Part shown: positions 3,746 through 32,072 of the stretch, piece after piece
Layout of the letters: each line of letters opens with the position of its first letter
How positions within the stretch are numbered: position 1 is the first letter of the stretch
Assembly: GCA_945965275.1 (NCBI GenBank)
Contig: CAMFNB010000013.1
Location: forward strand, 1 to 35,290
Direction: 5' to 3'
DNA: 35,290 nucleotides
Source: an uncultured Clostridia bacterium
GTDB taxonomy: Bacteria; Bacillota; Clostridia; UBA1212; SIG427
Translations under genes and position numbers: made by a program
Notes under the pieces: model-generated
Seen by the model: the letters and a program-made list of their open reading frames with translations, nothing else
Told to the model about the DNA's origin: nothing
The model's database searches: none

Positions 3746-5377
3746 TTATGAAATACCTATTATCCAGTGATAAATTTCCTGTCCGCCATATACAAATTCA
3801 ACTTCCATGCCCGGCCAGCTTTCTTCGATAATTTCGCGAACATCGTCTTCCGCATCCTCGTCGGCATCCTTTCCCCTGAATACGATGCACATTTCCTTTT
3901 CGTCCATATCCGGCACAAGAGTTAAACCTGACCTGATGCAGTCTGTCATGTTGTTTTTAACGCAAATAAGCTCTCCGCCCAAAAGACAGATTTCATCCCC
4001 TTCTTTGCAGCTCAGCTCATTCACCGAGTATGCGCGGGAAGCGGTTGTTTCCTGAAGAGTCAGCGTGCTTGTGGCACCGTTTTCCATCTGTTTGATTCTT
4101 CTTGCAAAGTCATCTGAATCAGCCATATCCATTGCAAGTGCAAAATATCCTTCGGCAAGGGTTTTAGTTGAAAGAACGGTAATCTCAGCCTCCTTATATA
4201 TTTCAGCTGCCTGCTTTGCCGCAAGAATCACATTTGAGTTGTTCGGAAGAACAACAATCTTTTTTGCATTTACTTTTTTGAACGCATCAACAAATTCCTT
4301 TGAAGAAGTGTTCATTGTTGCACCGCCGTCAAGTACGGCATCACATCCGAAGCTTTCAAAAAGCTCCGTGAAGCCTTCACCGTTTGAAACAGCAATTCTG
4401 GCAAAATCTTTTACCTTTGCCTTTTTTTCATTATGCTGAACCTGCATGTTCTCCAGTTTGAAATCAATGAATACTCCGTACTCTTCGCATGTCCTGATGA
4501 TTTTTGAAGGATTCTTTGTATGAACATGCACCTTCACAAGCATATTGTCCTGAACAGCAACAACGGAGTTTCCGTAAGACTCAAGAATGCCCGTAAAAGA
4601 TTTCATTTTAAAGTTTTGATCAAATTCTCCTGTCTTCATCAGTTGGAGAATAAATTCCAAACAGTATCCGTCTTCAAAAGCACTGTTTTCATTGAAAATT
4701 TCCGGCGTAACTTCAATTTTCTTACTCTCTTCTTTTACACTGAAATCAAGTGCAGTATCTTCGATATGTTCTCCGTAAAGCGACTTGAGCATACCTTCGA
4801 AGATTAAAATAAAGCCAGCTGCTCCGCTGTCAACAACACCTGCTTCTTTAAGAACGTCAAGCATGTCAGGTGTCTGGGAGAGAATTTTCTTCATTTCCGC
4901 GATATACATCGAAATCAGAACGTCGCATGGTGTGAGCCTTGAAATTTGTCCTCGTATGTTTTCAATGCCTTCACGTGCAACCGTGAGCATAGTTCCTTCA
5001 ACGGGACGAAGCACCGTTTTGTATGCGTTCCTGTAGCCCATGATAAGGCCGTTACGAAGTTCGCCTATTCCAATAACGGGCTTGTTGCGAAGTTCCGTGT
5101 AAAAGCCCTTGAAAAACTGCGAAAGAATAACGCCTGAGTTTCCTCTTGCGCCAAGCAGCATACCAACGCTGATTGCTTTTAGCACAACTGAAGTATCTGC
5201 ATTTGATTGTATTTTCGAAGCTCCGCTTTCAAGTGTTTTACACATGTTGGTACCGGTATCTCCGTCCGGTACCGGAAAAACGTTAAGGTCGTTAATCTCC
5301 CTCTCGTGAAGGCGAAGATTTGCCAAACCGTTTTTCAGCATTTTTTCCAGCATGAAGCCGTCAATTCTTTTAATCAT
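3746..5377 (-). CDS. fakA: Fatty acid kinase subunit A (FakA/YloV family), copy 1
   Basis: FakA phosphorylates a fatty acid held by a FakB (DegV) protein, giving acyl-phosphate for phospholipid synthesis. The 543-residue length is normal. The DhaL-type kinase domain is at the N-terminus, with the metal/ATP motif VPDGDTGTNM (36-45) and GARGNSGVILSQ (77-88). The middle domain carries a conserved Cys (DGYCLEF) and the VHVHT motif that bind zinc in characterised FakA. A C-terminal YloV domain includes VVLPNNSNV and a glycine-rich GGAT segment. AGGAAAGG precedes the ATG. It overlaps the transporter gene by 8 bp. The FakB partner is probably the DegV gene at 6732-7664 in the same operon. Confidence 0.9.
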   Translation of the reverse strand: MIKRIDGFMLEKMLKNGLANLRLHEREINDLNVFPVPDGDTGTNMCKTLESGASKIQSNADTSVVLKAISVGMLLGARGNSGVILSQFFKGFYTELRNKPVIGIGELRNGLIMGYRNAYKTVLRPVEGTMLTVAREGIENIRGQISRLTPCDVLISMYIAEMKKILSQTPDMLDVLKEAGVVDSGAAGFILIFEGMLKSLYGEHIEDTALDFSVKEESKKIEVTPEIFNENSAFEDGYCLEFILQLMKTGEFDQNFKMKSFTGILESYGNSVVAVQDNMLVKVHVHTKNPSKIIRTCEEYGVFIDFKLENMQVQHNEKKAKVKDFARIAVSNGEGFTELFESFGCDAVLDGGATMNTSSKEFVDAFKKVNAKKIVVLPNNSNVILAAKQAAEIYKEAEITVLSTKTLAEGYFALAMDMADSDDFARRIKQMENGATSTLTLQETTASRAYSVNELSCKEGDEICLLGGELICVKNNMTDCIRSGLTLVPDMDEKEMCIVFRGKDADEDAEDDVREIIEESWPGMEVEFVYGGQEIYHWIIGIS

Positions 5378-6731: not shown

Positions 6732-7664
6732 TTACTCCGCTGCAGAATACTTTTCAACAATTGCTTTCTCTCTTCCGAGGTCTTCCGAAATCGGAGTTCC
6801 CATGTAATATGCTGCCATGAGTCCGGGTCCGATATTAACTCCGCATGCCGGGAATACGTCACGAATTACAACAGCCTTAGGCTTAAACTTTTCTTCAATC
6901 ATGGCCTTGTATTTTTCAGCCTGAGGAAGTCTGTTTGTCTGAGCGATAAAGATAATCTGTTCTGAAGGATTCTCGATTGTCTCTTCAATGTAGTGCATGA
7001 GAACCTCATACGCCTTCTTTTCGCCTTTTATCTTGCCTATAACTGTTGTCATTCCGTTATAGTCAAATTCTCCGATTGGCTTAATTCCGATAAGCTGTCC
7101 CATGAAAGCTTTTCCGTGGGTCATTCTTCCCTTCTTTGCAACGAAAGAAAGGTCATCGAGCCAGCCGGCCTGGTGGAATCTGTTTTTATTTGTTTCAACA
7201 TACTGCGCAACTGTATCAAGTCCGTATCCCTCATCTCTGAGGGCTGCAGCACATACTGTCATAAGTCCGAAGCCCGGTCCGAATCTGAGTGTGTCGATAA
7301 CCTTGATGTTTGCATCAGGATTTGCTTCAAGCACGGCATCTCTTGCAGAGCATGCGAATCCGTATGTTCCGCTGATACCTGATGAAATTGTCATACAGAG
7401 TATGTCACAGCCCTCTTCAATGTATTTTGTGAAAACTTCGGTAAATTCCTGGACATTTGCAGGAGCCGTTGAATATCCGTCAGGGTTCTTTTTAAGATCC
7501 TTGTAAAAGTCTTCTCTTCCGATTTCATCCCATGAGAAAATTGACCGGAACTCTTTTCCGTCAGGCTTAAGTACATGTGATCGTAATACCTTGATGTCGT
7601 ACTTTTCCTGGTAATCATTTCCGAGATCACAAGTTGCATCTGCAACGATAACAAATTTTTTCAT
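6732..7664 (-). CDS. DegV family fatty-acid-binding protein (FakB-like), copy 1
   Basis: 310 residues with a complete DegV fold. The N-terminal nucleotide-like start is FVIVADATCDL (4-14). The ligand-site motifs are YSTAPANVQEF (64-74) and SSGISGTYG (94-102). The C-terminal half has AKKGRMTHGKA and a closing segment with CGVNIGPG. Such proteins hold a fatty acid in a buried tunnel and present its carboxylate to FakA. The gene begins 3 bp after the hydrolase stop and its ribosome site GAGAGGG lies inside the end of that gene. FakA follows two genes later. It has a longer insertion near residues 30-50 than the other DegV protein in the window, so the two probably differ in acyl-chain preference. 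Confidence 0.9.
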   Translation of the reverse strand: MKKFVIVADATCDLGNDYQEKYDIKVLRSHVLKPDGKEFRSIFSWDEIGREDFYKDLKKNPDGYSTAPANVQEFTEVFTKYIEEGCDILCMTISSGISGTYGFACSARDAVLEANPDANIKVIDTLRFGPGFGLMTVCAAALRDEGYGLDTVAQYVETNKNRFHQAGWLDDLSFVAKKGRMTHGKAFMGQLIGIKPIGEFDYNGMTTVIGKIKGEKKAYEVLMHYIEETIENPSEQIIFIAQTNRLPQAEKYKAMIEEKFKPKAVVIRDVFPACGVNIGPGLMAAYYMGTPISEDLGREKAIVEKYSAAE

Positions 7665-18976: not shown

Positions 18977-19005
18977 TTGACAACACACGGCGATAATCGT
19001 ATAAT
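18977..19005 (+). promoter_or_regulatory. Exact-consensus promoter of the aromatic operon
   Basis: TTGACA (18977-18982), a 17-bp spacer and TATAAT (19000-19005) match the housekeeping sigma consensus at all twelve positions. Transcription should begin near 19012, giving an approximately 190-base leader before aroF. The first transcribed bases form TCGGC-AAAG-GCCGA (19014-19027), a small 5' hairpin. Such a strong promoter fits control downstream by attenuation. Confidence 0.92.
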
Positions 19006-19049
19006 GTACGCAATCGGCAAAGGCCGAAATTACTCGAAAGAGAAATGAT

Positions 19050-19127
19050 ATGAAAAGAAACTGCATTAAAAAGTATTATTGGTTTAGCTTTTACTTTGCG
19101 AATTCAAGTCGTACGGTTAGTTTGTGA
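19050..19127 (+). CDS. Aromatic leader peptide of the attenuator
   Basis: A 25-codon ORF, ATG at 19050 and TGA at 19125-19127, starting MKRNCIKK and continuing YYWFSFYF (codons 9-16, 19074-19097), then ANSSRTVSL. Seven of eight consecutive codons are Tyr, Trp or Phe, far beyond chance and covering all three aromatic amino acids. GAAAGAG (19036-19042) is a modest ribosome site 7 bases upstream. It lies between the exact-consensus promoter and a terminator hairpin in front of a Tyr/Phe/chorismate operon. Its translation, not its product, should be what matters: ribosome stalling reports low charged aromatic tRNA. Confidence 0.88.
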   Translation: MKRNCIKKYYWFSFYFANSSRTVSL

Positions 19128-19174
19128 TGCAGTGAATTACAGTTAAAATCCACGCGGTACAGATTAACCTGTAC
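19111..19174 (+). promoter_or_regulatory. Predicted antiterminator pairing of the aromatic attenuator
   Basis: GTACGGTTAG (19111-19120) can pair with TTAACCTGTAC (19164-19174): ten pairs including one G-U, with one bulged base. This uses the 3' arm of the terminator, so the two folds exclude each other. A ribosome stalled on the aromatic codons (19074-19097) leaves 19111-19120 free; one at the stop codon (19125-19127) covers it. A further 7-bp pairing, ACTGCAT (19060-19066) with ATGCAGT (19127-19133), may act as a pause or protector stem. Confidence 0.65.
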
Positions 19175-19187
19175 CGCATTTTTTATT
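19154..19187 (+). terminator. Attenuator terminator before aroF
   Basis: GCGGTACAG (19154-19162) and CTGTACCGC (19169-19177) form a perfect 9-bp stem around ATTAAC, followed by ATTTTTTATT. It lies between the leader peptide stop and the aroF ribosome site (GGAGGG, 19191-19196), so reading through it is required for expression of the operon. Confidence 0.92.
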
Positions 19188-19203
19188 ATCGGAGGGAAAT
19201 ATC

Positions 19204-20205
19204 ATGATAGTAGTATTGAAGGAAAACGTAGAAAAGGAAAAGCAGGACCAGCTTGTTGATTGGCTCAAGAGCTTAGGCCTCGGAGTACACATCTCAGCAG
19301 GACAGTTCCAGACAGTCTTAGGACTTATCGGAGACACATCAAGTCTCGATATGGACTTGGTTGAAAGCCTTGATATTGTCGACACGGTAAAAAGAGTAAC
19401 AGAAACATTCAAATGCGGTAACAGAAAGTTCCACCCGGAAGACACGGTAGTAAGCGTAGGAGATGTAAAAATCGGCGGCGGCAATTTCTGTATGATTGCA
19501 GGTCCCTGCTCAGTTGAGTCAGAAGAACAGATTATTTCAATCGCAAGGGATGTAAAGGCTGCAGGTGCAAACGTATTAAGAGGCGGAGCATTCAAGCCGA
19601 GAACTTCACCTTATGATTTCCAGGGCCTCGGACATGACGGCCTCGAGATTCTCAAAATCGCAAGACAGGAAACAGGACTTCCCATTATTTCTGAAATAAT
19701 GAATGTATTCGATCTTCCTCTCTTCGAGGATGTTGACATTTTACAGGTCGGTGCGAGAAACATGCAGAACTTCGATCTCTTAAAGGAACTCGGTAAAACA
19801 AATAAACCGATTCTTCTCAAGAGAGGTCTTGCAAATACACTTAAAGAATTTCTCATGAGTGCCGAATATATCATGGCACAGGGTAATGAGAATGTTATCC
19901 TCTGTGAGCGGGGTATCAGAACATACAGCGACTACTTAAGAAACACTCTTGACCTTTCGGCAGTACCGATGCTTCATGAGCTCTCTCACCTTCCGGTTAT
20001 CGTTGACCCGAGCCATGCAACAGGTATCGCAAGAATGGTACCGCCGATGGCAAAAGCAGCAACAGCCTGCGGAGCAGACGGACTTATCATTGAAGTTCAC
20101 AACGATCCTCCGCATGCACTTTGCGACGGCGCTCAGTCATTAAGACCTGAGGATTATGCAAAACTTGTAACAAAAATCAATGCAATCAGGGAGGCAATAA
20201 AGTGA
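19204..20205 (+). CDS. aroF: 3-deoxy-7-phosphoheptulonate (DAHP) synthase, class Ib with N-terminal regulatory domain
   Basis: Catalyses the first step of the shikimate pathway, condensing phosphoenolpyruvate and erythrose 4-phosphate. 333 residues. A ferredoxin-like N-terminal domain (about 1-70), as in the Thermotoga enzyme where it binds Tyr/Phe for feedback inhibition, precedes the TIM barrel. Barrel markers are IAGPCSVES (98-106), [14 protein letters not shown] (128-141), [10 protein letters not shown] and [14 protein letters not shown] precedes the ATG. It is the first structural gene after the attenuator, the logical control point for the whole pathway. It overlaps tyrA by 4 bp. Control is thus likely at two levels, attenuation and allostery. 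Confidence 0.95.
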
Positions 20206-21035
20206 TTGCAGGAATTATAGGGTTGGGATTAATAGGCGGTTCATTTGCCAAGGCTTATCACAGCAAGGGCCACACTGTCTATGCCTTCAACAGAACAAAA
20301 TCAGTAACAGACTTTGCTCTTTTAAGCGGAGACATTGACGGAGAGCTTACTGATGAAAGAATTCCGGAGTGCGATATCATCCTTAACTGCCTGTATCCGC
20401 AGGCTGCAATCAAATGGCTTGAAGACAAAGGTCCCATTATCGGTAAAAAGCCCATCGTAATCGACGGCTGCGGCACAAAGAAGGACATATGCGAAAAAGG
20501 AATGGCGCTTGCCGAAAAATACGGCTTCACATTTGTCGGCGGACATCCTATGGCCGGAACACAGTTTTCAGGATACAAATACGCAAAGGCAACTCTCTAC
20601 AACGGTGCGCCAATGGTTATCGTACCGCCGAAATACGACGATATTGTTTTCCTTGCGCACATAAAAGAATTACTTGAACCGGCAGGGTTCAGAAGCATAA
20701 CAGTTACAACAGCAGACGAACACGATGCGGTTATTGCATTCACATCTCAGCTTGCACATATTGTTTCAAATGCCTATGTAAAAAGCCCTACCTCAAGAAG
20801 ACACGCCGGCATGTCCGCAGGAAGCTACAAGGACCTTACACGTGTAGCATGGCTTAACCCTCAGATGTGGACAGAACTTTTCTTAGAGAACAAGGACAAT
20901 TTGGTTTACGAGCTTGATACCATTATCAGGAGCCTCAAAGAATACAAGGCCGCCATTCAAAGCGAGGACAGCGAAACACTGAGGAAGCTTCTTGAAGACG
21001 GAAAGAGAATAAAAGAGGAGGTGGACGGAAAATGA
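20202..21035 (+). CDS. tyrA: Prephenate dehydrogenase
   Basis: Oxidatively decarboxylates prephenate to 4-hydroxyphenylpyruvate for tyrosine synthesis, using NAD(P). 277 residues, GTG start overlapping the aroF stop (GTGA). The Rossmann motif is IIGLGLIGGS (5-14). The family motif GGHPMAGTQFSGY lies near the middle and SQLAHIVSNAY in the C-terminal helical dimerisation region. There is no fused chorismate mutase or C-terminal ACT domain, so feedback by Tyr, if any, would need another mechanism. Placement directly after aroF, ahead of the common pathway genes, is notable. An arogenate preference cannot be excluded from sequence. Confidence 0.93.
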   Translation: MIAGIIGLGLIGGSFAKAYHSKGHTVYAFNRTKSVTDFALLSGDIDGELTDERIPECDIILNCLYPQAAIKWLEDKGPIIGKKPIVIDGCGTKKDICEKGMALAEKYGFTFVGGHPMAGTQFSGYKYAKATLYNGAPMVIVPPKYDDIVFLAHIKELLEPAGFRSITVTTADEHDAVIAFTSQLAHIVSNAYVKSPTSRRHAGMSAGSYKDLTRVAWLNPQMWTELFLENKDNLVYELDTIIRSLKEYKAAIQSEDSETLRKLLEDGKRIKEEVDGK

Positions 21036-22090
21036 GAACCGTTGCGATAAATGCCAGCAGAAAATATGACGTTGTTATCGGACAGGGACTTTTACAGAAT
21101 CTCGGTAAAATGATTTCCGAAGTAACCTCCGGCAGAACAGCGATAATTGTTTCGGACGACAATGTCTTCCCGCTTTACGGCAGCACCGTGAAGGAACAGC
21201 TCCTTTCGGCAGGCTTTGAAATAACGGAATTCGTTTTCCTAAGCGGAGAAAACAGCAAGAACTTAGATACATACGGCAAGCTGCTGAATACAATGTCCGA
21301 AAAGCATCTCACAAGAAACGATGTTGTGGTTGCACTGGGCGGCGGTGTCGTCGGCGACCTTGCGGGTTTTGCTGCAGCAACATATCAAAGAGGAACAGGC
21401 TTCGTACAGGTACCCACTTCTCTTCTTGCTGCGGTTGACTCATCAGTCGGCGGTAAGACAGCAGTTGACCTGCCAAGCGGTAAAAATCAGGTGGGTGCAT
21501 TTTACCAGCCTTCACTTGTTCTCTGCGACACGGACACATTAAAAACCCTGCCCGATGCGGAATACAGAAACGGCTGTGCGGAGATTATCAAATATGCAAT
21601 GATTGAAGACGAAGCTCTCTTTGAAAAAATCAAGGCAACACCTATCAAAGATCAGTACGAAGAAATCATTGAAATCTGCGTAAAGATAAAACAGCTTTAT
21701 GTTGAGTCAGATGAGTTTGACGTCGGAAAAAGAATGTTCTTAAACTTCGGTCACACAATCGGCCACTGCGTCGAAGCATGCAGTAACTATGAAATTCCCC
21801 ACGGACAAGGTGTTGCAATCGGCATGGTTGCAATTACAAAAGCGGCATGGAAAAAAGGCTTTTGCAGCTTAGAGCTTTGCGAAAAGCTGAACGAGCTTAT
21901 CGAATATTACGGCCTGCCGACAAAGCTTCCTTTTACAGCGGAAGAAATGTTCGGAGCATCACTTTCAGACAAAAAGAATTTCGGAAAGAAAATGCGTCTT
22001 ATCGTGCCTGAAAGCATCGGTAAGTGCAGAATAGAAACAATCGGGCAGGATGACTTTATGACCTGGCTGAAAAGCGGAGGTGCCCAGTGA
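21032..22090 (+). CDS. aroB: 3-dehydroquinate synthase
   Basis: Converts DAHP to 3-dehydroquinate, the second shikimate step, with NAD and a divalent metal. 352 residues, normal length. The NAD and active-site motifs are present: ALGGGVVGDLAGF, PTSLLAAVDSSVGGKTAVD and the metal-binding NFGHTIGHCVE and HGQGVAIGM. An ATGA overlap joins it to tyrA, and GGAGGTGG lies within the end of tyrA as the ribosome site. It overlaps aroA by GTGA. Confidence 0.95.
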   Translation: MRTVAINASRKYDVVIGQGLLQNLGKMISEVTSGRTAIIVSDDNVFPLYGSTVKEQLLSAGFEITEFVFLSGENSKNLDTYGKLLNTMSEKHLTRNDVVVALGGGVVGDLAGFAAATYQRGTGFVQVPTSLLAAVDSSVGGKTAVDLPSGKNQVGAFYQPSLVLCDTDTLKTLPDAEYRNGCAEIIKYAMIEDEALFEKIKATPIKDQYEEIIEICVKIKQLYVESDEFDVGKRMFLNFGHTIGHCVEACSNYEIPHGQGVAIGMVAITKAAWKKGFCSLELCEKLNELIEYYGLPTKLPFTAEEMFGASLSDKKNFGKKMRLIVPESIGKCRIETIGQDDFMTWLKSGGAQ

Positions 22091-23340
22091 CTCAAACAAT
22101 AGTCCCGGGAAAAAGAACAGGCACGGTGTCCATTCCTTCTTCAAAATCTGTCGCACACAGATTGCTCATTTGTGCTGCCCTCTCTCATGAATGCAGTACA
22201 CTCACATTAGAAGGAATGTCAAAGGACATCAGCGCAACAATAAGCAGCCTGACTTCTCTCGGTGCTGAATTTGAAAACAGCGCAAAAAACGAGATCAGGA
22301 TTTCTCCGGTAAAAGGCAGCACAGAGGTTTGCAGCCTATGCTGCGGAGAGAGCGGATCAACCTTAAGATTCATGATGCCTGTTGCGGCAGCTCTCGGTAA
22401 AAAGGCAACGTTTCTCATGAGCGGTCTTCTTCCCAGCAGACCCCACGACGTTCTCATTAATGTTCTGGGACAGCACGGCGTCAGGGTTGAAAAAATCGGT
22501 GACACGCTTGTATCAGAAGGAAAGCTTACCGCAGGAACTTTTGAAGTTCCGGGCAATATTTCCTCACAATATATTTCCGGTTTGTTGTTTGCCCTTCCCC
22601 TTCTTGAAGGAGACAGCATAATTGACATATACGGAAAAATCGAATCCTCCGCATACATCGGTATGACAGAGGATGCAATAAAAGCCTTCGGAATCAATTT
22701 CAGAAAAGAAGGCAACAAATATTTCATTCCGGGCAGGCAAAAGTACAGCGCACCGAGTCATTTTACAGCAGAAAAAGACTGGTCCAATGCGGCATTCTTC
22801 CTCTGCATGGGCGCAATGTCAGACAAGGGAATAACACTGACCGGCATGAACATGTCTTCAAGACAGGGCGACAAAAAAATAGCGGATATCTTAAAGCAGT
22901 TCGGTGCGGACATCGAAATCGCAGACGGTGATATTCACATAAAAAAGGGAGAACTTAAAGGCATCACTGTTGACGCGGCAGAGATTCCCGATCTCGTTCC
23001 CACAATCAGCGCACTCGCCCAGGGCGCTTCGGGAACCACACGAATAATCAATGCCCGGAGACTTCGCTTTAAGGAATCAGACAGACTGAAAACAACAGCC
23101 CATATGTTAAATACACTCGGCGGTGCCGTTACCGAAACGGAAGACGGACTTATCATAGAAGGAAAACCGGAACTGGGCGCGGGAACAATCGATCCTGCGA
23201 ACGACCACAGAATTGCAATGTCAGCAGCAGTTGCATCCTGCATCTGCACAGGCGATGTTATAATTCCCGGTTCTGAATGCGTTGAAAAATCATACCCTGA
23301 TTTCTGGCGCGATTTTTACAGCTTGGAGGTTATGCAATGA
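22087..23340 (+). CDS. aroA: 3-phosphoshikimate 1-carboxyvinyltransferase (EPSP synthase)
   Basis: Transfers the enolpyruvyl group of PEP to shikimate 3-phosphate. 417 residues, GTG start overlapping aroB by GTGA, with GGAGG just upstream. Family motifs: SIPSSKSVAHRLLICAAL near the N-terminus (the catalytic SKS), GESGSTLRFMMPVA (the PEP loop), RRLRFKESDRL and DPANDHRIAMSAA. In the PEP loop the usual Gly-Asn-Ala-Gly-Thr is Gly-Glu-Ser-Gly-Ser-Thr, a feature shared with many Clostridial (class II-like) enzymes. It overlaps aroC by ATGA. Confidence 0.95.
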   Translation: MTQTIVPGKRTGTVSIPSSKSVAHRLLICAALSHECSTLTLEGMSKDISATISSLTSLGAEFENSAKNEIRISPVKGSTEVCSLCCGESGSTLRFMMPVAAALGKKATFLMSGLLPSRPHDVLINVLGQHGVRVEKIGDTLVSEGKLTAGTFEVPGNISSQYISGLLFALPLLEGDSIIDIYGKIESSAYIGMTEDAIKAFGINFRKEGNKYFIPGRQKYSAPSHFTAEKDWSNAAFFLCMGAMSDKGITLTGMNMSSRQGDKKIADILKQFGADIEIADGDIHIKKGELKGITVDAAEIPDLVPTISALAQGASGTTRIINARRLRFKESDRLKTTAHMLNTLGGAVTETEDGLIIEGKPELGAGTIDPANDHRIAMSAAVASCICTGDVIIPGSECVEKSYPDFWRDFYSLEVMQ

Positions 23341-24404
23341 GCAGCCATTACGGAGAAAACATTAAACTCACGATTTTCGGTCAGAGCCACTCCCCCGCAA
23401 TCGGAATGACTCTTGAAGGAATTCCCGCAGGTGAGAAAATTGACATGGAAAAGCTCGGCACTTTTCTTGCAAGAAGAGCACCCGGTAAAAATAAATTTTC
23501 CACACCGAGAAAAGAAGCTGACCTGCCTGAATTCGTAAGCGGCATCGTGGGAGACACCACATGCGGAGTTCCGCTCACCGCTCTTATTCACAACACAAAC
23601 ACACGTTCAGGCGATTATTCCGAACTTAAAATCACACCCCGTCCGGGCCACGCGGATTACACGGCCGAGGTAAAATACAAGGGCTGCCAGGACTATGCCG
23701 GCGGCGGACATTTTTCGGGAAGACTTACCGCGCCCCTCTGCATAGCAGGCGGAATTGCAAAACAGCTCCTTGAAAAAGAAGGAATCAGAATTGCAGCAAG
23801 AATTGCAGCAATCGGCGGAATATGTGACGAGGGTGCTCTTACCGAAACTCTCGAAGCTAAGGAGTTCCCTGTTGTCGATGACAGAAAGGGAGAGGAAATG
23901 CGTGCACTCATCGCAGAAAAAAGAGCTGTCGGCGACTCAGTCGGCGGAATCGTTGAGTGTGTTGTAACCGGACTTCCCGCAGGACTGGGCGACCCCATGT
24001 TTGACGGTATGGAAAACAGAATCGCACAGATTGTATTCGGTATCCCGGCGGTAAAAGGACTTGAGTTCGGCGCAGGCTTCTCAGTTGCGGAAATGACCGG
24101 CAGTCAGTGCAATGACGCATACTGTCTCGAAAGCGGAACGGTAAAAACAAAGACTAACAACTGCGGAGGAATTTTAGGAGGAATCACAAACGGCATGCCT
24201 CTTACATTCAAAGCAGCATTCAAGCCCACACCTTCAATTGCAATGACACAGGAAAGTGTGAATTTGGAAGAAGGAAAAGAAACAGAGCTTTCAGTTAAAG
24301 GAAGACACGATCCATGTATCGTGCCGCGCGCAGTGCCCGTTGTTGAAGCGGCGGCAGCACTCGCAGTATATGATGCACTACTCGGAAGGAGAAAAGAAAT
24401 ATAA
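23337..24404 (+). CDS. aroC: Chorismate synthase
   Basis: Removes phosphate from EPSP to make chorismate, using reduced FMN. 355 residues. Motifs: GQSHSPAIGMTLEGIPAG (catalytic His), then RPGHADY and GGGHFSGRLTAPLCIAGGIA; the C-terminal region has GGILGGITNGMPL and GRHDPCIVPRAVPV. All are normal for the family. ATGA overlap with aroA, preceded by GGAGG. The TAATG junction with pheA shares one base. FMN reduction is presumably supplied by other cell flavoproteins, as no reductase domain is fused. Confidence 0.96.
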   Translation: MSSHYGENIKLTIFGQSHSPAIGMTLEGIPAGEKIDMEKLGTFLARRAPGKNKFSTPRKEADLPEFVSGIVGDTTCGVPLTALIHNTNTRSGDYSELKITPRPGHADYTAEVKYKGCQDYAGGGHFSGRLTAPLCIAGGIAKQLLEKEGIRIAARIAAIGGICDEGALTETLEAKEFPVVDDRKGEEMRALIAEKRAVGDSVGGIVECVVTGLPAGLGDPMFDGMENRIAQIVFGIPAVKGLEFGAGFSVAEMTGSQCNDAYCLESGTVKTKTNNCGGILGGITNGMPLTFKAAFKPTPSIAMTQESVNLEEGKETELSVKGRHDPCIVPRAVPVVEAAAALAVYDALLGRRKEI

Positions 24405-25546
24405 TGAGTACCGGGGAATATCGTAAACAGATTGATGAAATTGATGACCAGATTATCAGTCTCTTCGCAAAAAGAATGGAAGTTGCTTCACATATAGCTG
24501 AGGAAAAAAAGAAAAACAATCTTCCGGTTTTAGATTCGAAGAGAGAGCGTGAGAAGCTTCTTGACATCATTGACAAGACGCCTGAGGAAATAAAGGAATA
24601 TTCTCCTCTTCTCTACTCCCTTATCTTTGAAATAAGCAGAAGCTATCAGAATAAAATCATCGGAGCAAACGATGAACTCACAAACAAAATCAAGGGAGCC
24701 ATTGAAGGCACGGCTCAGCTTTTCCCAGACAATGTAAGCGTTGCCTGTCAGGGTGTTGAAGGCGCAAACTCACAGATTGCCTGTGACAAGCTCTTCAAGT
24801 ATCCGAGAATTTTATATTTTTCAAACTTTGAAGCTGTTTTCTCTGCCATTGAAAAGGGTCTTTGCAGGTACGGTGTAATTCCGCTTGAGAACAGCACCGC
24901 AGGTTCTGTTAACTCAGTATACGATTTGATGATGGAGCACAAGTTCAGCATCGTAAGAAGTATCAGAGCAAAAATCACTCACAACCTTTTGGTTAAGCCG
25001 GGTACAAAGCTTGAAGACATAAAGGTTATCTATTCTCATGAGCAGGCAATTAACCAAAGCTCTGTATTTCTCAGTACTCTTAAGAATGTTCAGATTATTC
25101 CCTGCGAGAACACTGCAGTAGCCGCAAAGAAGGTTTCCGAATCAACGGATAATTCAGTTGCTGCTCTTGCTTCAATTCAGTGTATGAAATATTACGGACT
25201 GGAGTGCCTTAAAGAGTCTGTTCAAAACACAGACAACAACTACACCAGATTCATCTGTATTTCAAAAAATCTTGAAATCTATCCCGGAGCTGACAGAACA
25301 AGTATCATGCTTACTCTTCCTCACGAGCCCGGTTCACTTTATAAAATGCTTTCAAGATTTTATGCTCTTGATATAAACCTTATTAAGCTTGAAAGCCGTC
25401 CGCTCCCGAACAAAGAATTTGAATTCATGTTCTACTTCGATTTGGAAACTCCTGTTTACTCACCGAAGTTCCTTCAGCTCATGGGCGAGCTTCCTTCAAT
25501 CTGCGACTCTTTCCAGTACTTAGGAAGTTATAACGAGGTAATTTAA
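24404..25546 (+). CDS. pheA: Bifunctional chorismate mutase-prephenate dehydratase (P-protein)
   Basis: Makes prephenate and then phenylpyruvate for phenylalanine synthesis. 380 residues in three domains. An AroQ-class chorismate mutase is at the N-terminus (about 1-88; YRKQIDEIDDQIISLFAKRM), a prephenate dehydratase follows (about 105-285; VACQGVEGANSQIA, IPLENSTAGSV, NYTRFICIS), and an ACT domain closes the protein (about 295-372; LPHEPGSLYKML, KLESRP). The ESRP-type motif in the ACT domain is associated with Phe feedback inhibition. The mutase also supplies prephenate for tyrA, which lacks its own. It starts at the aroC stop (TAATG) and ends directly before the aroE/aroK fusion. Confidence 0.95.
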   Translation: MSTGEYRKQIDEIDDQIISLFAKRMEVASHIAEEKKKNNLPVLDSKREREKLLDIIDKTPEEIKEYSPLLYSLIFEISRSYQNKIIGANDELTNKIKGAIEGTAQLFPDNVSVACQGVEGANSQIACDKLFKYPRILYFSNFEAVFSAIEKGLCRYGVIPLENSTAGSVNSVYDLMMEHKFSIVRSIRAKITHNLLVKPGTKLEDIKVIYSHEQAINQSSVFLSTLKNVQIIPCENTAVAAKKVSESTDNSVAALASIQCMKYYGLECLKESVQNTDNNYTRFICISKNLEIYPGADRTSIMLTLPHEPGSLYKMLSRFYALDINLIKLESRPLPNKEFEFMFYFDLETPVYSPKFLQLMGELPSICDSFQYLGSYNEVI

Positions 25547-26791
25547 ATGGCTCGTTGCGGACTTCTCGGAGAAAAATTAGGCCACAGCTACTCACCGTTC
25601 ATTCACAATATGCTCGGTGACTATTCCTATGAGATTTTCGAGCGGTCTCCGGAATCAGTTGAAGATTTCATAAAAAACGGCGACTGGAACGGACTTAATG
25701 TAACAATTCCGTACAAGAAAACAGTCTTTCCGTTCATGGACAAAATCGGTGACTTCGCTCAGAAAACAGGCAGCATAAATGTTATCGTAAGAAAACCTGA
25801 CGGAACGCTTTACGGAGACAATACGGATGTATACGGATTCATCAAGCTCGTTGAGCTTTCAAAGATTGATGTTTCCGGTAAAAAGACTCTTGTCCTCGGC
25901 AACGGCGGTGCAGCTACCGCGGTAATCGTCGGTCTTAAAGAGCTTGGTGCCGTTCCTGTTATCATCAGCAGGTCCGGTGAATTCAATTATAATAACCTGG
26001 AACTTAACTACGATGCCGAAGTTATCGTAAACACCACTCCCGTCGGCATGTACCCGAATACCGGAAAAGCACCCCTTGACCTCGCACCTTTCAAAAACCT
26101 CAAGGGTGTAATTGACATCATCTACAACCCTGCAAGGCCCGAGCTTCTTCTCCAGGCAGAAAGACTCGGCATTCCCTGTATAAGCGGATTATACATGCTG
26201 GTTGCACAGGCCAAGAAAGCAGCGGAGATTTTTACGGGAAAAGAAATCGACGACAATAAAACAGATGAAATTTTCCACGCAATGATTCGCAGGCTTCAGA
26301 ACATTGTTCTCATAGGAATGCCCGGCTGCGGTAAAAGCACAATTGCAAGAGAAATCACTGAATGCACCGACAGAGCTCTGTTTGACGCGGATGATGAAAT
26401 TGAAAAGACTGCAGGCATGTCACCTGCACAAATTATTAAAGAAAAAGGCGAAGATGAATTCAGAAGAATCGAAAGCAGCGTTCTCTTAGAACTCGGTAAA
26501 AAATCAGGTGCCGTAATTGCCACCGGCGGCGGTGCAGTGGTACGTGCGGAAAACTATGATTACCTTCACCAGAACGGCATCATCGTCTGGCTTCGCAGAG
26601 ATCTCTCACTTTTACCGTCAAATGGAAGACCGCTCTCTCAGCAGAAGGGCCTTGAAAGACTTTTTGATGAAAGAGCTCCTCTTTACGAAAAATTTGCGGA
26701 TATCACAATCAGACTTGGTGAAAAACACTCAATATCTGATATACTTGACACCGTGTATAAGGAGTTAGTAAATGAAAATACTTGTAATTAA
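25547..26791 (+). CDS. Fused shikimate dehydrogenase-shikimate kinase
   Basis: 414 residues, two consecutive shikimate steps in one chain. AroE domain (about 1-240): GLLGEKLGHSYSPFIHN, catalytic Lys57 in NVTIPYKK, Asp94 in GDNTDVYG, the NADP loop LGNGGAATAV and NTTPVGMYP. AroK domain (about 250-408): Walker A GMPGCGKST (257-265), DADDEIE for shikimate binding, and the substrate/lid motifs FRRIES and TGGGAVV. All catalytic residues of both halves are visible. The order AroE-AroK would pass shikimate from the N-terminal to the C-terminal active site. The gene abuts pheA and overlaps aroQ by 20 bp. I saw no frameshift, so it is a true fusion. Confidence 0.94.
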   Translation: MARCGLLGEKLGHSYSPFIHNMLGDYSYEIFERSPESVEDFIKNGDWNGLNVTIPYKKTVFPFMDKIGDFAQKTGSINVIVRKPDGTLYGDNTDVYGFIKLVELSKIDVSGKKTLVLGNGGAATAVIVGLKELGAVPVIISRSGEFNYNNLELNYDAEVIVNTTPVGMYPNTGKAPLDLAPFKNLKGVIDIIYNPARPELLLQAERLGIPCISGLYMLVAQAKKAAEIFTGKEIDDNKTDEIFHAMIRRLQNIVLIGMPGCGKSTIAREITECTDRALFDADDEIEKTAGMSPAQIIKEKGEDEFRRIESSVLLELGKKSGAVIATGGGAVVRAENYDYLHQNGIIVWLRRDLSLLPSNGRPLSQQKGLERLFDERAPLYEKFADITIRLGEKHSISDILDTVYKELVNENTCN

Positions 26792-27212
26792 CGGACCTAA
26801 TATTAATATGCTTGGAATTCGCGAACCTGCAGTTTACGGTTCACAGGACTACAATGCCCTTCTCTCTTTTATCAGGAAAACATGTGAGGAAGAAGGAATC
26901 GAGGTTGAGTGTTTCCAGTCAAATCACGAAGGCGACATCGTTGATAAGATTCAGGCCGCCTTTAACGTGTTCGACGGAATCGTAATTAACCCTGCGGCAT
27001 ACACTCATACAAGCGTTGCAATCTTAGACGCACTCAAGGCAGTGGGACTTCCTACAGTTGAAGTTCACATCTCTGATGTGTCAACAAGAGAAGACTTCCG
27101 ACAGATTTCATACGCCGGAAAGGCCTGCATTAAAACATACATGGGTCTCGGCTTTGAAGGATACAGACAGGCAATTCTTTATCTGAAAGGATACTTGGGT
27201 GAGCAGAAATGA
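26772..27212 (+). CDS. aroQ: Type II 3-dehydroquinate dehydratase
   Basis: Dehydrates 3-dehydroquinate to 3-dehydroshikimate, the third shikimate step. 146 residues, the usual size of the dodecameric type II enzyme. The markers are NGPNINMLGIREPAVYG with catalytic Tyr22, NPAAYTHTSVAI (Asn73, His79) and VEVHISD (His99). It overlaps the aroE/aroK gene by 20 bp, with AAGGAG inside that gene as the ribosome site. Its stop is overlapped by a 26-codon ORF. With this gene every step from PEP and erythrose 4-phosphate to chorismate is encoded in the operon. Confidence 0.95.
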   Translation: MKILVINGPNINMLGIREPAVYGSQDYNALLSFIRKTCEEEGIEVECFQSNHEGDIVDKIQAAFNVFDGIVINPAAYTHTSVAILDALKAVGLPTVEVHISDVSTREDFRQISYAGKACIKTYMGLGFEGYRQAILYLKGYLGEQK

Positions 27213-27289
27213 AAATCAAGACAATCCTGAACAGTTTGTTCATTTTAAATAAAAGGTGGCGCAAGGCGCCGAATATTGCAGCATGGTAG
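27209..27289 (+). CDS. Small ORF with Trp codons between aroQ and trpB2, possible leader peptide
   Basis: The ATG overlaps the aroQ stop (ATGA) and a 26-codon frame runs to TAG at 27287-27289. It starts MKIKTILNSLFILNKRWRKA and ends with Trp as its last codon, so 2 of 26 residues are Trp. GGGTGAG in the end of aroQ could serve as its ribosome site. The hairpin GGCGC-AAG-GCGCC (27258-27270) overlaps the first Trp codon. There is no T-run, so it is not a classical attenuator; translational coupling to trpB2 would be the possible role. It may also be meaningless spacer. Confidence 0.35.
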   Translation: MKIKTILNSLFILNKRWRKAPNIAAW

Positions 27290-27327
27290 AACGTGAAGAA
27301 AATACAAAACAGAAAGGAAAAATTATC

Positions 27328-28692
27328 ATGAATGAAATACCATACAAAATTTATTTAACAGAAGACGAGATGCCTAAGGCATGGTACAATTTAAGATCGG
27401 CTATGAAGAACAAGCCGGCTCCGTTACTTAATCCGGGCACACACGAACCAATGAAGGCAGAAGAGCTTGCTCCTGTTTTCTGTGAGGAACTCATCAAGCA
27501 GGAACTCGACAACGATACAGAGTACTTCCCGATTCCGGATGAGATTTACAACTTCTACAAAATGTTCCGTCCTTCACCGCTCGTAAGAGCATACTTCCTT
27601 GAGAAGGCTCTCGGAACACCCGCAAAGATTTACTATAAGTTCGAAGGTAACAACACCAGCGGTTCTCACAAGTTAAACTCGGCCATCGCTCAGGCATATT
27701 ATGCAAAGAAGCAGGGACTTAAGGGTGTTACAACTGAAACAGGCGCAGGACAGTGGGGAACAGCTCTTTCAATGGCATGTTCATATTTCGGTCTTGACTG
27801 TAAGGTTTACATGGTTAAGGTATCATACGAGCAGAAGCCGTTCAGACGTGAAGTTATGAGAACATACGGTGCTGACGTTACTCCTTCTCCTTCAATGACA
27901 ACAAATATCGGTAAAAAGATCCTCGAAGCTCATCCCGGAACAACAGGAAGCCTTGGTTGTGCAATTTCAGAAGCTGTTGAAGTTGCAACATCAACGCCGG
28001 GATACAGATATGTTCTCGGAAGTGTTCTTAACCAGGTTCTCCTTCACCAGAGTATCATTGGTCTTGAGACGCAGGCAGCACTTGATAAGTACGGCGAAAA
28101 GCCTGACATCGTAATCGGTTGCGCAGGCGGCGGTTCTAACCTCGGCGGTCTTATCGCTCCTTTCATGAGAGATAAGATTAACGGAGACCTTGATTGCCGG
28201 ATCATCGCAGTCGAGCCTGCATCATGCCCTTCACTTACACGTGGTGTTTATGCTTACGACTTCTGCGATACCGGTATGGTTTGTCCTCTTGCAAAGATGT
28301 ACACCCTGGGAAGCAACTTCATTCCTTCAGCTAACCACGCAGGCGGATTAAGATATCACGGTATGAGTTCAACACTTTCACAGCTTTACGACGACGGTCT
28401 CATGGAAGCAAGATCAGTTGTACAGACAGATGTATTCAAGGCAGCTGAGCAGTTCGCAAGAGTTGAAGGTATACTTCCTGCTCCTGAGAGCTCACATGCA
28501 ATCAAGGTTGCAATCGACGAGGCTCTTAAGTGTAAAGAAACAGGCGAAGCAAAGACAATCGTATTCGGTCTTACAGGTACAGGTTACTTCGACCTTGTTG
28601 CTTACCAGAAGTTCCACGACGGCGATATGTCAGACTACATCCCGACAGATGAAGATCTTCAGAAGAGCTTCGACACTCTTCCGAAAACCTGA
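27328..28692 (+). CDS. trpB: TrpB2-type tryptophan synthase beta chain
   Basis: PLP enzyme joining indole and serine to make tryptophan. 454 residues from the ATG at 27328, which follows AGAAAGGA; the longer frame from GTG 27256 has no matching ribosome site or family similarity. The PLP Lys is in NNTSGSHKLNSA and the phosphate cup in GCAGGGSNLGG; ETGAGQWGTALS is the indole-site Glu loop. The length, the N-terminal extension (YKIYLTEDEMPKAWYN) and the motif spacing fit the TrpB2 group, which acts without a TrpA subunit. No trpA, trpC, trpD or trpE is in the window, so it likely salvages free indole. A terminator follows. Confidence 0.92.
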   Translation: MNEIPYKIYLTEDEMPKAWYNLRSAMKNKPAPLLNPGTHEPMKAEELAPVFCEELIKQELDNDTEYFPIPDEIYNFYKMFRPSPLVRAYFLEKALGTPAKIYYKFEGNNTSGSHKLNSAIAQAYYAKKQGLKGVTTETGAGQWGTALSMACSYFGLDCKVYMVKVSYEQKPFRREVMRTYGADVTPSPSMTTNIGKKILEAHPGTTGSLGCAISEAVEVATSTPGYRYVLGSVLNQVLLHQSIIGLETQAALDKYGEKPDIVIGCAGGGSNLGGLIAPFMRDKINGDLDCRIIAVEPASCPSLTRGVYAYDFCDTGMVCPLAKMYTLGSNFIPSANHAGGLRYHGMSSTLSQLYDDGLMEARSVVQTDVFKAAEQFARVEGILPAPESSHAIKVAIDEALKCKETGEAKTIVFGLTGTGYFDLVAYQKFHDGDMSDYIPTDEDLQKSFDTLPKT

Positions 28693-28709
28693 TTTGATTT
28701 TTAATTCAA

Positions 28710-28741
28710 GGCAGGTGTTCATTTCGGGCACCTGTCTTTTT
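28710..28741 (+). terminator. Terminator of the aromatic operon
   Basis: GGCAGGTG (28710-28717) pairs with CACCTGTC (28729-28736), 8 bp with one G-U, followed by TTTTTG. It lies 17 bp after the trpB2 stop. Confidence 0.85.
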
Positions 28742-28797: not shown

Positions 28798-29664
28798 TTA
28801 TCTCTTCTTACCTACAAAGAACAAAGCGAGTGTTCCCGGACCTGAGTGTGAACCGATAACAGGACCGACACTTGAAATGCTTGTTGCCTTTACGCCGTTC
28901 TTTGCAGCGATAAGCGCCTCAACTGTCTTAGCATCTTCAAGACAGTCACCGTGAGAAATGAAATACGGCTGGCTTGTCGGGTCTTCTGCAAGCTCGTAAT
29001 ACTTATCTGCAAGAGCCTTGAGTGCAAGCTTTCTTCCTCTTACCTTTGACATGCTGATAAGATGTCCGTCATCATCAACATGAAGTACAGGCTTAATATC
29101 AAGCACTGTAGCGGCAAATGCAGCTGCGGCACTTACTCTTCCGCCGCGCTTTAAATATACAAGATCATTTACGGTGAACCAGTGGCAAAGCTTTGGTGCG
29201 ATTTCCGAAAGGTACTTTTTGTTTTCTTCAAATGATGCTCCTTCCTTTTTCTTTTCAACCGCATACCATACCATAAAACCTTCGCCTGCTGATGCACATT
29301 TTGAATCAAGTACGAATACTTCTCTGTCCGGGAATTCTTCTTTTAATTCCTCTGCAGCAATCTTTGCAGAATTGCTTGTTGTTGAAAGACCTGATGAAAG
29401 ATCGATAAAGATGACGTCCAAACCCTGTGAAAGAGGCTGTGTGAACATTTCCTTAAAGCCCTCCGGGTTAACAGCTGCTGTCTGGAATACAACGCCGTCT
29501 CTCATCTTTGCATAGAACTCATCAATTGCCATGTCTTTGCTTGTAAACGCTTCGTCTTTTTCGGCTCTTTTGAATGTAAGTTCTCTCCATTCAACACCCC
29601 ACTGCTGAAGTGTTTCGAGAGGCAAGTCGCATCCTGAGTCTGTCATAATTACATAATCGCCCAT
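28798..29664 (-). CDS. DegV family fatty-acid-binding protein (FakB-like), copy 2
   Basis: 288 residues, complete DegV fold: VIMTDSGCDLP (5-15), the ligand-site motifs FQTAAVNPEGF (60-70) and LSSGLSTTSN (89-98), VYLKRGGRVSAAAAF and a final SVGPVIGSHSGPG. The last motif, with HSGPG, is the normal C-terminal fatty-acid-site signature; the other DegV protein in the window has CGVNIGPG instead. It binds a fatty acid and delivers it to FakA. GGAGAAAA precedes the ATG, 28 bp after the plsC stop. It is the last gene of the sigma-fakA-plsC-fakB operon. Its partner is probably the FakA at 30435-32072. Confidence 0.92.
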   Translation of the reverse strand: MGDYVIMTDSGCDLPLETLQQWGVEWRELTFKRAEKDEAFTSKDMAIDEFYAKMRDGVVFQTAAVNPEGFKEMFTQPLSQGLDVIFIDLSSGLSTTSNSAKIAAEELKEEFPDREVFVLDSKCASAGEGFMVWYAVEKKKEGASFEENKKYLSEIAPKLCHWFTVNDLVYLKRGGRVSAAAAFAATVLDIKPVLHVDDDGHLISMSKVRGRKLALKALADKYYELAEDPTSQPYFISHGDCLEDAKTVEALIAAKNGVKATSISSVGPVIGSHSGPGTLALFFVGKKR

Positions 29665-30434: not shown

Positions 30435-32072
30435 TTACTCCGCAGAGATTATATACTGGTAAATAGGCTGTTTTCCGCTTACCAGAGCCACGTCAACGTT
30501 TTCTGCCACGCTTCTTATTATCTCAGCAACGGCTTCAGCCTCTTCTTCCTCTGTTTTTTTACCGTAATACACGGTTACAAGGTCTTTTCCGATAACATTC
30601 TCGGCAAGAGCTCTGATACAGTCCTCCATTGTGTCGGCAGCATATTTAAGGTCATTGTCCACAAGGCCGATGTACTGCTTCTTCTTTACGCTGATGTTGT
30701 CGATTTCGGCATCTTTTACCGCTCTTGTAACTGAAAGTGTGGTAACTGTTGTTCTTGCAGCCTCCATATTTTCAACATTTTCCGCAACAGAAAGAGAAGG
30801 ATCAATCGAAATGATTGATGTCACGCCCTGAGGAATGGTCTTTGTGGTAACAACGCCAACCTCAACGCCTTCGTCGCAGAGCTCCGCTGCCTGCTTTGCC
30901 GCAAGCACGATATTTGAGTTGTTCGGTAAAAGTATAACCTTGTTGCAGTGAACTTCCCTGATTGCCTTAAGGAAATCTTCCGTGCTGGGGTTCATGCTCT
31001 GGCCGCCTTCGATTACATATGAAGCACCGAGTTCCATGAACAGATCACGAATACCGTCTCCGTTGGCAACGGGAATTATTGCGTAGTCGTCGTCGAGAGG
31101 AGATTCCTCTTCAACCGGCTCAGGATTTTCCTCAGCCTTTGACATCATATTGCTGTGCTGCTGGCGCATATTCTCAACCTTTACGAATTGAGGATCGCCG
31201 TACAGGAACATTCTTGTGAGAACCTTGAGAGGCTCGTTTGTGTGTACATGAACTTTAACAATCTCGTCATCATTTGTAAGAACAATGCTGTCACCGAGAT
31301 TACTTAAGAATCTTCTGAGTGAACCCATCTCCTCTTCGGGAATTTCCTTCTCAATATTCACAAGAGCTTCAGTGCAGAACTGGAATGTGATTTCTTCAGT
31401 TGAAAATGCAGAGAAGTCGGCAGATTGTCTTGTGTTGTCAGAAGTGTTTTCTTCAACAACCTCAACAGTCTCCCCGTGAAGAGCCTTAATCATTCCCTTG
31501 AGAATAATGTTGAAACCGTATCCGCCTGAGTCAACTACCTTTGCCTTTTTAAGTGCCGGAAGCATGTCAGGAGTTTTCTTGAGTGTTTCCTTTGCTTCAG
31601 CATAAACCGCATCCATAAGAGTGCAAATGTCATCAGAAGAACTTATTGATACATTTGCGCACTCTCTCATTACCGTGAGGATTGTTCCCTCAACCGGCTT
31701 CATTACGGCTTTTCTTGCTGAATCAGCACCGTTCTTAAGAGCTGCCAAAAGTTCTTCTTTATCAGCTTCCTTTTTACCGTCAAAGCTCTGAGCCACTCCG
31801 CGGAAGAACAGCGAAAGAATTACACCTGAATTACCGCGTGCTGCACGCATTACTGCTTTTGCAACTGCCTTTGCCTCTTCTCCCAGGTCTCCTTTGGGCG
31901 TTCCGAGTGTGCGGACAGCTTCAAGTGTCATGAACATGTTTGATCCCGTATCTCCGTCAGGTACAGGAAATACGTTTAAGCGGTTAACATCCTCTTTTTG
32001 TGCCTGGAGTGCATTTGCGCCCGTGCAGACCATTCTGTGGTAGAGAACAGCATCAATTTTTTCTATAGCCAA
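30435..32072 (-). CDS. fakA: Fatty acid kinase subunit A (FakA/YloV family), copy 2
   Basis: 545 residues. DhaL-type kinase domain with VPDGDTGSNM (37-46) and AARGNSGVILS (78-88); middle domain with a Cys in QFCTEAL and the zinc-site KVHVHT; C-terminal YloV domain with LPNNSNIVLAAKQAAE and a GKKTEEEEAEA stretch. The start is TTG at 32072, set by GGAGGGG 8 bases upstream. It is preceded by a hairpin that reaches the ribosome site. It is distinct from the copy at 3746-5377 along the whole length, so the duplication is old. The neighbours plsC and fakB make its role in exogenous fatty-acid phosphorylation secure by context. Confidence 0.92.
   Translation of the reverse strand: MAIEKIDAVLYHRMVCTGANALQAQKEDVNRLNVFPVPDGDTGSNMFMTLEAVRTLGTPKGDLGEEAKAVAKAVMRAARGNSGVILSLFFRGVAQSFDGKKEADKEELLAALKNGADSARKAVMKPVEGTILTVMRECANVSISSSDDICTLMDAVYAEAKETLKKTPDMLPALKKAKVVDSGGYGFNIILKGMIKALHGETVEVVEENTSDNTRQSADFSAFSTEEITFQFCTEALVNIEKEIPEEEMGSLRRFLSNLGDSIVLTNDDEIVKVHVHTNEPLKVLTRMFLYGDPQFVKVENMRQQHSNMMSKAEENPEPVEEESPLDDDYAIIPVANGDGIRDLFMELGASYVIEGGQSMNPSTEDFLKAIREVHCNKVILLPNNSNIVLAAKQAAELCDEGVEVGVVTTKTIPQGVTSIISIDPSLSVAENVENMEAARTTVTTLSVTRAVKDAEIDNISVKKKQYIGLVDNDLKYAADTMEDCIRALAENVIGKDLVTVYYGKKTEEEEAEAVAEIIRSVAENVDVALVSGKQPIYQYIISAE

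Follow-up and report, generated by a model that had tools for sequence, protein, structure and literature searches.

The leader in front of the aroF operon of the window, by which we mean the whole 35,290-nucleotide stretch of DNA analyzed here, is very probably a ribosome-mediated transcription attenuator. Its parts are conserved at related loci, its two competing helices covary, and a switch between them is predicted by folding. We also consider it likely that the leader belongs to one homologous clostridial scaffold, made of a region-2 core (GUAAGGNNNNUUUGUGNUGC) and a matched terminator, whose duplicate copies acquired new targets through exchange of the sensor run alone: Phe/Tyr codons before aroF, TrpX-like transporters, and paaK; additional Trp codons in cases where the aro operon took in trpB2 and the Trp T-box of that gene was lost; Leu codons in front of an acyl-CoA ligase fusion; and Ile codons before an unseen gene.

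The window is a contig of a 1.53-Mb metagenome-assembled genome that is 82.9% complete. An earlier note on this DNA had described an exact-consensus promoter, a 25-codon leader open reading frame (ORF) with seven aromatic codons in eight, and a terminator with a 9-bp stem and a T-run, and it placed all three correctly. The leader has the following parts.

18977..19005, + strand: sigma-70-type promoter TTGACA-17-TATAAT, agreeing with the consensus at 12/12 positions
19050..19127, + strand: leader peptide ORF of 25 codons, MKRNCIKKYYWFSFYFANSSRTVSL and a stop, from translation; an aromatic-rich ORF is likewise placed in most homologous loci
19060..19068, + strand: region 1, a predicted anti-antiterminator and the partner of 19125-19133 when no ribosome is present, from the minimum-energy fold of the complete leader
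19074..19097, + strand: sensor run Tyr-Tyr-Trp-Phe-Ser-Phe-Tyr-Phe, with 7/8 codons for Phe, Tyr, or Trp
19111..19130, + strand: region 2, the 5' half of the antiterminator, from the free fold with upstream bases masked and from covariation; its core UUUGUGNUGC is kept in alignments A1 and A2
19154..19174, + strand: region 3, the terminator 5' arm and loop and also the antiterminator 3' half, from folding and covariation
19154..19187, + strand: intrinsic terminator with a 9-bp stem, 6-nt loop, and T-run, with two-sided changes in 9/9 pairs

Region 2 takes in the final leader codons together with the stop codon (19125-19127). The terminator stem (19154-19162/19169-19177) contains 6 G-C pairs among its 9 bp and is followed by ATTTTTTATT.

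We folded the leader with and without the bases that a ribosome would mask, a check that the earlier note had proposed. The pairing of 19111-19120 with 19164-19174 suggested there exists (-8.4 kcal/mol), but it represents just the outer stretch of a longer helix. The full antiterminator joins 19111-19130 to 19154-19174 over about 19 bp (-20.0 kcal/mol) and covers the 5' arm and loop of the terminator; only 0.2% of 2000 dinucleotide shuffles of the downstream leader matched the native strength of pairing with that arm and loop. When the bases under a ribosome at the last aromatic codon were removed, the free fold of this stalled state paired 19111-19126 and 19128-19130 with 19154-19156, 19158-19169, and 19171-19174, and the antiterminator reached -23.9 kcal/mol versus -21.8 kcal/mol with the terminator forced. 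A ribosome placed at the stop codon left the terminator as the one structure able to form (-16.6 kcal/mol). The predicted switch is reflected in the ensemble probability of the terminator stem, which was 0.11 in the stalled state, 1.0 with the ribosome at the stop codon, and 0.98 for a ribosome-free transcript beginning at the leader start codon. The minimum-energy fold of the ribosome-free leader pairs region 1 with bases 19125-19133, an interaction that would hold region 2. From the masked and free folds, we conclude that the classical 1:2, 2:3, 3:4 logic is present in the sequence of the window leader. A clear equilibrium switch was found in only 15 of 80 loci, and in most of the 80 the terminator wins even in the stalled state, so the model needs co-transcriptional, kinetic folding, in which region 2 would pair with region 3 before the 3' arm of the terminator is made.

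We infer stalling, termination, and a response to amino acids in the window leader as follows. RNA polymerase would start near 19012, judging from the promoter, and a ribosome would translate the 25-codon leader. If charged tRNA-Tyr, tRNA-Phe, or tRNA-Trp were low, the ribosome would stall on the codons at 19074-19097, leaving region 2 free to pair with 19154-19174, and with the antiterminator formed the polymerase would read into aroF-tyrA-aroB-aroA-aroC-pheA-aroEK-aroQ-trpB2. If aromatic amino acids sufficed, the ribosome would reach the stop codon and cover region 2, and the hairpin at 19154-19177 would end transcription near 19187. Without translation, region 1 would pair with region 2, with termination likewise predicted.

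We collected AroF homologs from 58 related whole genomes and 80 named contigs, chiefly of Lachnospiraceae, Oscillospiraceae, and unnamed Clostridia of the rumen and gut, and scored a leader where, within a small ORF ending 60 to 230 bases before aroF, six or more of eight consecutive residues were F, Y, or W. Such an ORF was present at 70/103 aroF loci, compared with 2/806 control positions in the same DNA. The leader peptides vary widely outside the aromatic run, and the run itself is conserved in character, not in letters. The spacing between the last aromatic codon of the run and region 2 has a median of 17 nt. What is conserved 3' of the run is the RNA and not the peptide: the core UUUGUGNUGC encodes a KVRAICAA-like tail in some loci, follows the stop codon in others, and is retained in differing reading frames. 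An Oscillibacter-like clade has a different yet matched pair of elements, for example, CGGUUUGGCUG with CAGCCGAACCG.

Both helices covary. Across 40 aligned leaders, the antiterminator had 46 two-sided cells in which pairing was kept, versus 18.7 ± 3.5 after shuffling, and the terminator had 40 versus 8.3 ± 2.3; these figures are strong but not exact, because relatedness stays in the shuffles. Sliding the partners abolished both signals. Region 2 also pairs better with its own terminator arm (mean, -14.8 kcal/mol) than with the arms of other loci (-11.6 ± 0.29 kcal/mol; z of -11 over 81 non-redundant loci). The alignment of upstream regions that the earlier note had called for bears it out, with a conserved aromatic run and two covarying stems, and conservation and covariation strongly support its proposal of attenuation. 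The core UUUGUGNUGC (19121-19130 in the window; columns 18-28 of A2) is nearly invariant even though neighboring pairs covary. It varies less than pairing alone requires, and pairing is insufficient as an explanation. In one clade (L006, L007, L008, L010, and L011), the aromatic leaders end in a conserved WRWRKF (CGATGGCGGAAGTTCTGA), and these loci have no recognizable scaffold, as judged by the lack of a match to covariance model R2, and no clear intrinsic terminator. The control step in this clade may differ from that in the window.

The predicted attenuator precedes nine genes and a terminator.

19204..20205, + strand: aroF, DAHP synthase of the B. subtilis type with a ferredoxin-like domain (TIGR01361; PF00793, PF18152)
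20202..21035, + strand: tyrA, prephenate dehydrogenase (best matches below curated cut-offs)
21032..22090, + strand: aroB (TIGR01357)
22087..23340, + strand: aroA (TIGR01356)
23337..24404, + strand: aroC (TIGR00033)
24404..25546, + strand: pheA, chorismate mutase-prephenate dehydratase (PF01817, PF00800)
25547..26791, + strand: aroE-aroK fusion (both domains matched, below curated cut-offs)
26772..27212, + strand: aroQ, type II dehydroquinase (TIGR01088)
27328..28692, + strand: trpB2, TrpB-like (TIGR01415)
28708..28738, + strand: terminator ending the operon (terminator scan)

No + strand terminator within 19200-28700 splits the operon, and the only good one comes after trpB2. Matches to internal promoters in the same interval numbered 12, against 12.3 expected from shuffles, and were discarded. 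The earlier note had called this a complete aromatic operon, which is correct for Phe and Tyr; the Trp part consists of trpB2 only. Neither a trpC-type (PF00218, indole-glycerol-phosphate synthase) nor a trpE-type (PF00425, chorismate-binding) protein was found in the 83%-complete genome, so that the trpE plus trpC pair by which we recognize a de novo tryptophan operon is lacking and trpB2 is the sole Trp gene in the operon. Given this gene content and what is known of TrpB2, the Trp part is probably indole salvage. Upstream of the aro operon and divergent from it lies a pyridoxamine kinase gene (NF005491; 17858-18700 of the window); trpB2 encodes a member of a PLP enzyme family. The minus strand around the operon appears to encode two DAK2/FakA-like kinases and two DegV-like proteins, as read from translations alone (3746-5377, 6732-7664, 28798-29664, and 30435-32072).

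We compared the sensor codons with the position of trpB2, which we counted as joined when it lay directly after aroQ or about 6 to 8 kb downstream of aroF on the same contig and otherwise as separate; operons without joined trpB2 were those that could be followed for at least 9.5 kb without encountering it. The leaders of most relatives have Phe and Tyr codons only. Where trpB2 is joined, 13/13 leaders contain Trp codons (12 from the scan plus L054, MKIISLYWRRFNWCKFAAGYFALL, read by eye), compared with 2/54 where it is not (L019 and L069), a difference with a Fisher P value of about 2e-11 when kinship is ignored. The Trp-bearing leaders of joined operons are very different in peptide (YYWWF, WRWRKF, IWYWYYF, YRFWRF, and LYWRRFNW). 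The AroF tree shows only two changes in joining and five in the Trp codon; there are therefore few independent events, and a tree-based test is powerless. The retention of a Trp codon in every joined lineage despite turnover of the peptide speaks for function. One exception, L009, has a joined trpB2 and no leader. Three further loci that were joined by coordinates (L044, L049, and L107) were rejected on finding different contigs or an intervening T-box.

The presence of a T-box tracks the position of the gene. Separate copies of trpB2 have a T-box directly upstream in 25/26 cases, versus 1/12 for joined copies (L146, in the L050 genome). Most T-boxes before separate copies have a UGG specifier; in the form GAAUGG[A/U]C, it can be made out in 20 of the 26 trpB2 T-boxes, L146 included. 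Before the window trpB2, Rfam gave no match in 27130-27340, and no remnant T-box at an E value of ≤1. Of all rows of the tree, L032 is closest to the window; its trpB2 is separate and has a T-box, and its leader holds no Trp codon. The Trp codon in the window leader fits the presence of trpB2 in the operon. The earlier note had proposed one leader sensing Phe, Tyr, and Trp for a joint operon. The run does hold codons for all three, but the operon is not a joint de novo one, as its only Trp gene is trpB2, and most homologous leaders lack Trp codons.

It is possible, though we doubt it, that only Phe and Tyr are sensed in effect, with the single Trp codon of the window incidental and the leader an ordinary Phe/Tyr attenuator. 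One Trp codon among six for Phe and Tyr may add little, and the prevalence of Phe/Tyr-only leaders, the rarity of Trp outside joined operons, and the small number of joining events all agree with such a reading; it sits poorly with Trp codons in every joined-operon leader, within such different peptides, and with the loss of the T-box from 11/12 joined trpB2 copies.

Three other explanations concern the device itself. Since T-boxes are common in these genomes (28/28 relatives) and control standalone trpB2, a T-box or another riboswitch might control the leader, with the small ORF incidental. We find this highly improbable: a search of the leader with Rfam 15, at the gathering threshold and at E values of ≤1, returned no family other than L20_leader and snoR53, both far below cut-offs and taken as chance; the T-box (RF00230), which is recognized by a stem I with a specifier loop and a UGGN bulge, had no match at the leader, and its motif is absent from A1 and A2; and the aromatic runs are conserved within an ORF whose other residues are not. 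An arrest peptide, stopping the ribosome through its sequence and not through codon starvation, has hardly more to recommend it, because the tail that some leaders share, such as KVRAICAA, reflects the RNA core, whose bases elsewhere stand in another frame or after the stop. Action on translation (coupling or reinitiation) or through Rho instead of intrinsic termination is somewhat less improbable but still unlikely. As a general proposal, reinitiation at leader peptides is in the literature (PMC4833913), and no clear intrinsic terminator accompanies the leaders of the sister clade (L006-L008, L010, and L011). Against this, leader and aroF are separated by a covarying GC stem with a T-run in the window and at about 80 loci, and the aroF ribosome-binding site is outside that hairpin. 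We favor attenuation by intrinsic termination.

Copies of the attenuator scaffold also occur away from aroF, as found with a covariance model, R1, built without the Leu-, Ile-, transporter-, and paaK-linked copies. The window's own genome has one scaffold copy only. Seven copies from seven genomes (L204-L207 and L224-L226) precede TrpX-like ABC transporter genes (PF04392; NF041285 at an E value of 6e-69, yet below its cut-off) and have Phe/Tyr leaders such as MKALSFAAAYYYRYYFRKTK, which suggests that uptake of aromatic amino acids is under the same switch. One copy (L170/L208; G210:C158:10858-10972), with the Phe/Tyr leader MFLSVLFVFICLYFYFFAFLFCKSKSVLCCG, stands before the phenylacetate-CoA ligase gene paaK (TIGR02155 at 560 bits versus a cut-off of 646), which could help to make aromatic amino acids through reductive carboxylation of arylacetates. 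Leu-rich leaders, MKHISLANLFLLLLLPQEIE in L201 and a related one in L203 (R1 E values of 6.5e-8 and 2.7e-8), precede a fusion of a xylose-isomerase-like TIM barrel with an AMP-binding acyl-CoA ligase (841 amino acids in L203), possibly for salvage of branched-chain acids for leucine. An Ile-rich leader, MKQSSFAIIIGIIISFIIRKCDKVGL (L202; G058:C139:19018-19129), matched R1 at an E value of 5.1e-5; here the contig breaks off before the gene that it would control is reached. Genome G058 carries all three versions, aromatic, Leu, and Ile. Changes of specifier codon in T-boxes are a parallel to these proposed swaps of the leader run (PMC2494555). Weak matches to R2 (L227-L230) and R1 (L168) were terminators without an aromatic leader and were taken as chance.

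Leader-peptide attenuation is classical in Proteobacteria, where it controls trp, phe, and his operons. Attenuators of trp are also known in Actinobacteria, where none such was found for Phe or Tyr (PMC1262725). Like the window, these systems combine a leader peptide of regulatory codons with a competing antiterminator, an intrinsic terminator, and a promoter directly upstream. The window system differs from them in belonging to Clostridia, in its mixed Tyr/Phe/Trp run, and in its predicted control of a whole shikimate-Phe-Tyr operon plus trpB2, and the clostridial system differs in having a conserved region-2 core common to leaders with different codon runs. The earlier note had contrasted Proteobacteria with Firmicutes as better known for T-box and TRAP control of aromatic genes, but leader-peptide attenuation occurs in Firmicutes too: a Leu-rich attenuator peptide is reported for the S. 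aureus ilv-leu operon (PMC5794164), hisS/hisZ leaders are predicted in bacilli (PMC2965389), and an upstream ORF precedes aroF in Acholeplasma (PMC8632094). The S. aureus and bacilli leaders likewise represent attenuation in Firmicutes, for other amino acids and other operons and with no shared scaffold shown. The Acholeplasma motif, uORFC-13-1, for which attenuation was proposed, has 24 examples, from Acholeplasma and environmental sequences only, and a U-run coding for at least one Phe (PMC8632094). Compared by its text description only, it resembles the window in having an upstream ORF with Phe codons and a promoter and terminator immediately before aroF; no model for it was among the Rfam matches at the leader. 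Beyond this motif, a literature search that took in few subscription papers gave no report of a clostridial aromatic leader, which is apparently undescribed.

The Trp T-box (RF00230) resembles the window leader in sensing the charging of tRNA-Trp and in controlling, in related genomes, the same gene, trpB2. Unlike the leader, it makes direct contact with tRNA and is independent of translation. In the window, trpB2 lacks a T-box; what the operon carries instead is a Trp codon in its leader. The choice of sensor codons seems to track which genes the operon contains, and leader codons seem to replace a T-box when a gene moves to another operon, which amounts to a natural experiment in rewiring. 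The leaders appear to form a family of attenuators in Clostridia of the gut and rumen, for which Rfam has no entry and in a group where T-boxes would be the expected device, and their scaffold provides a specific search model for the amino acid specificity of uncharacterized transporters and acid-CoA ligases. Relative to the known systems, the mechanism is familiar; what appears new is the exchangeable conserved scaffold, together with the mix of aromatic codons in one run and the link between the sensor codons and the genes of the operon.
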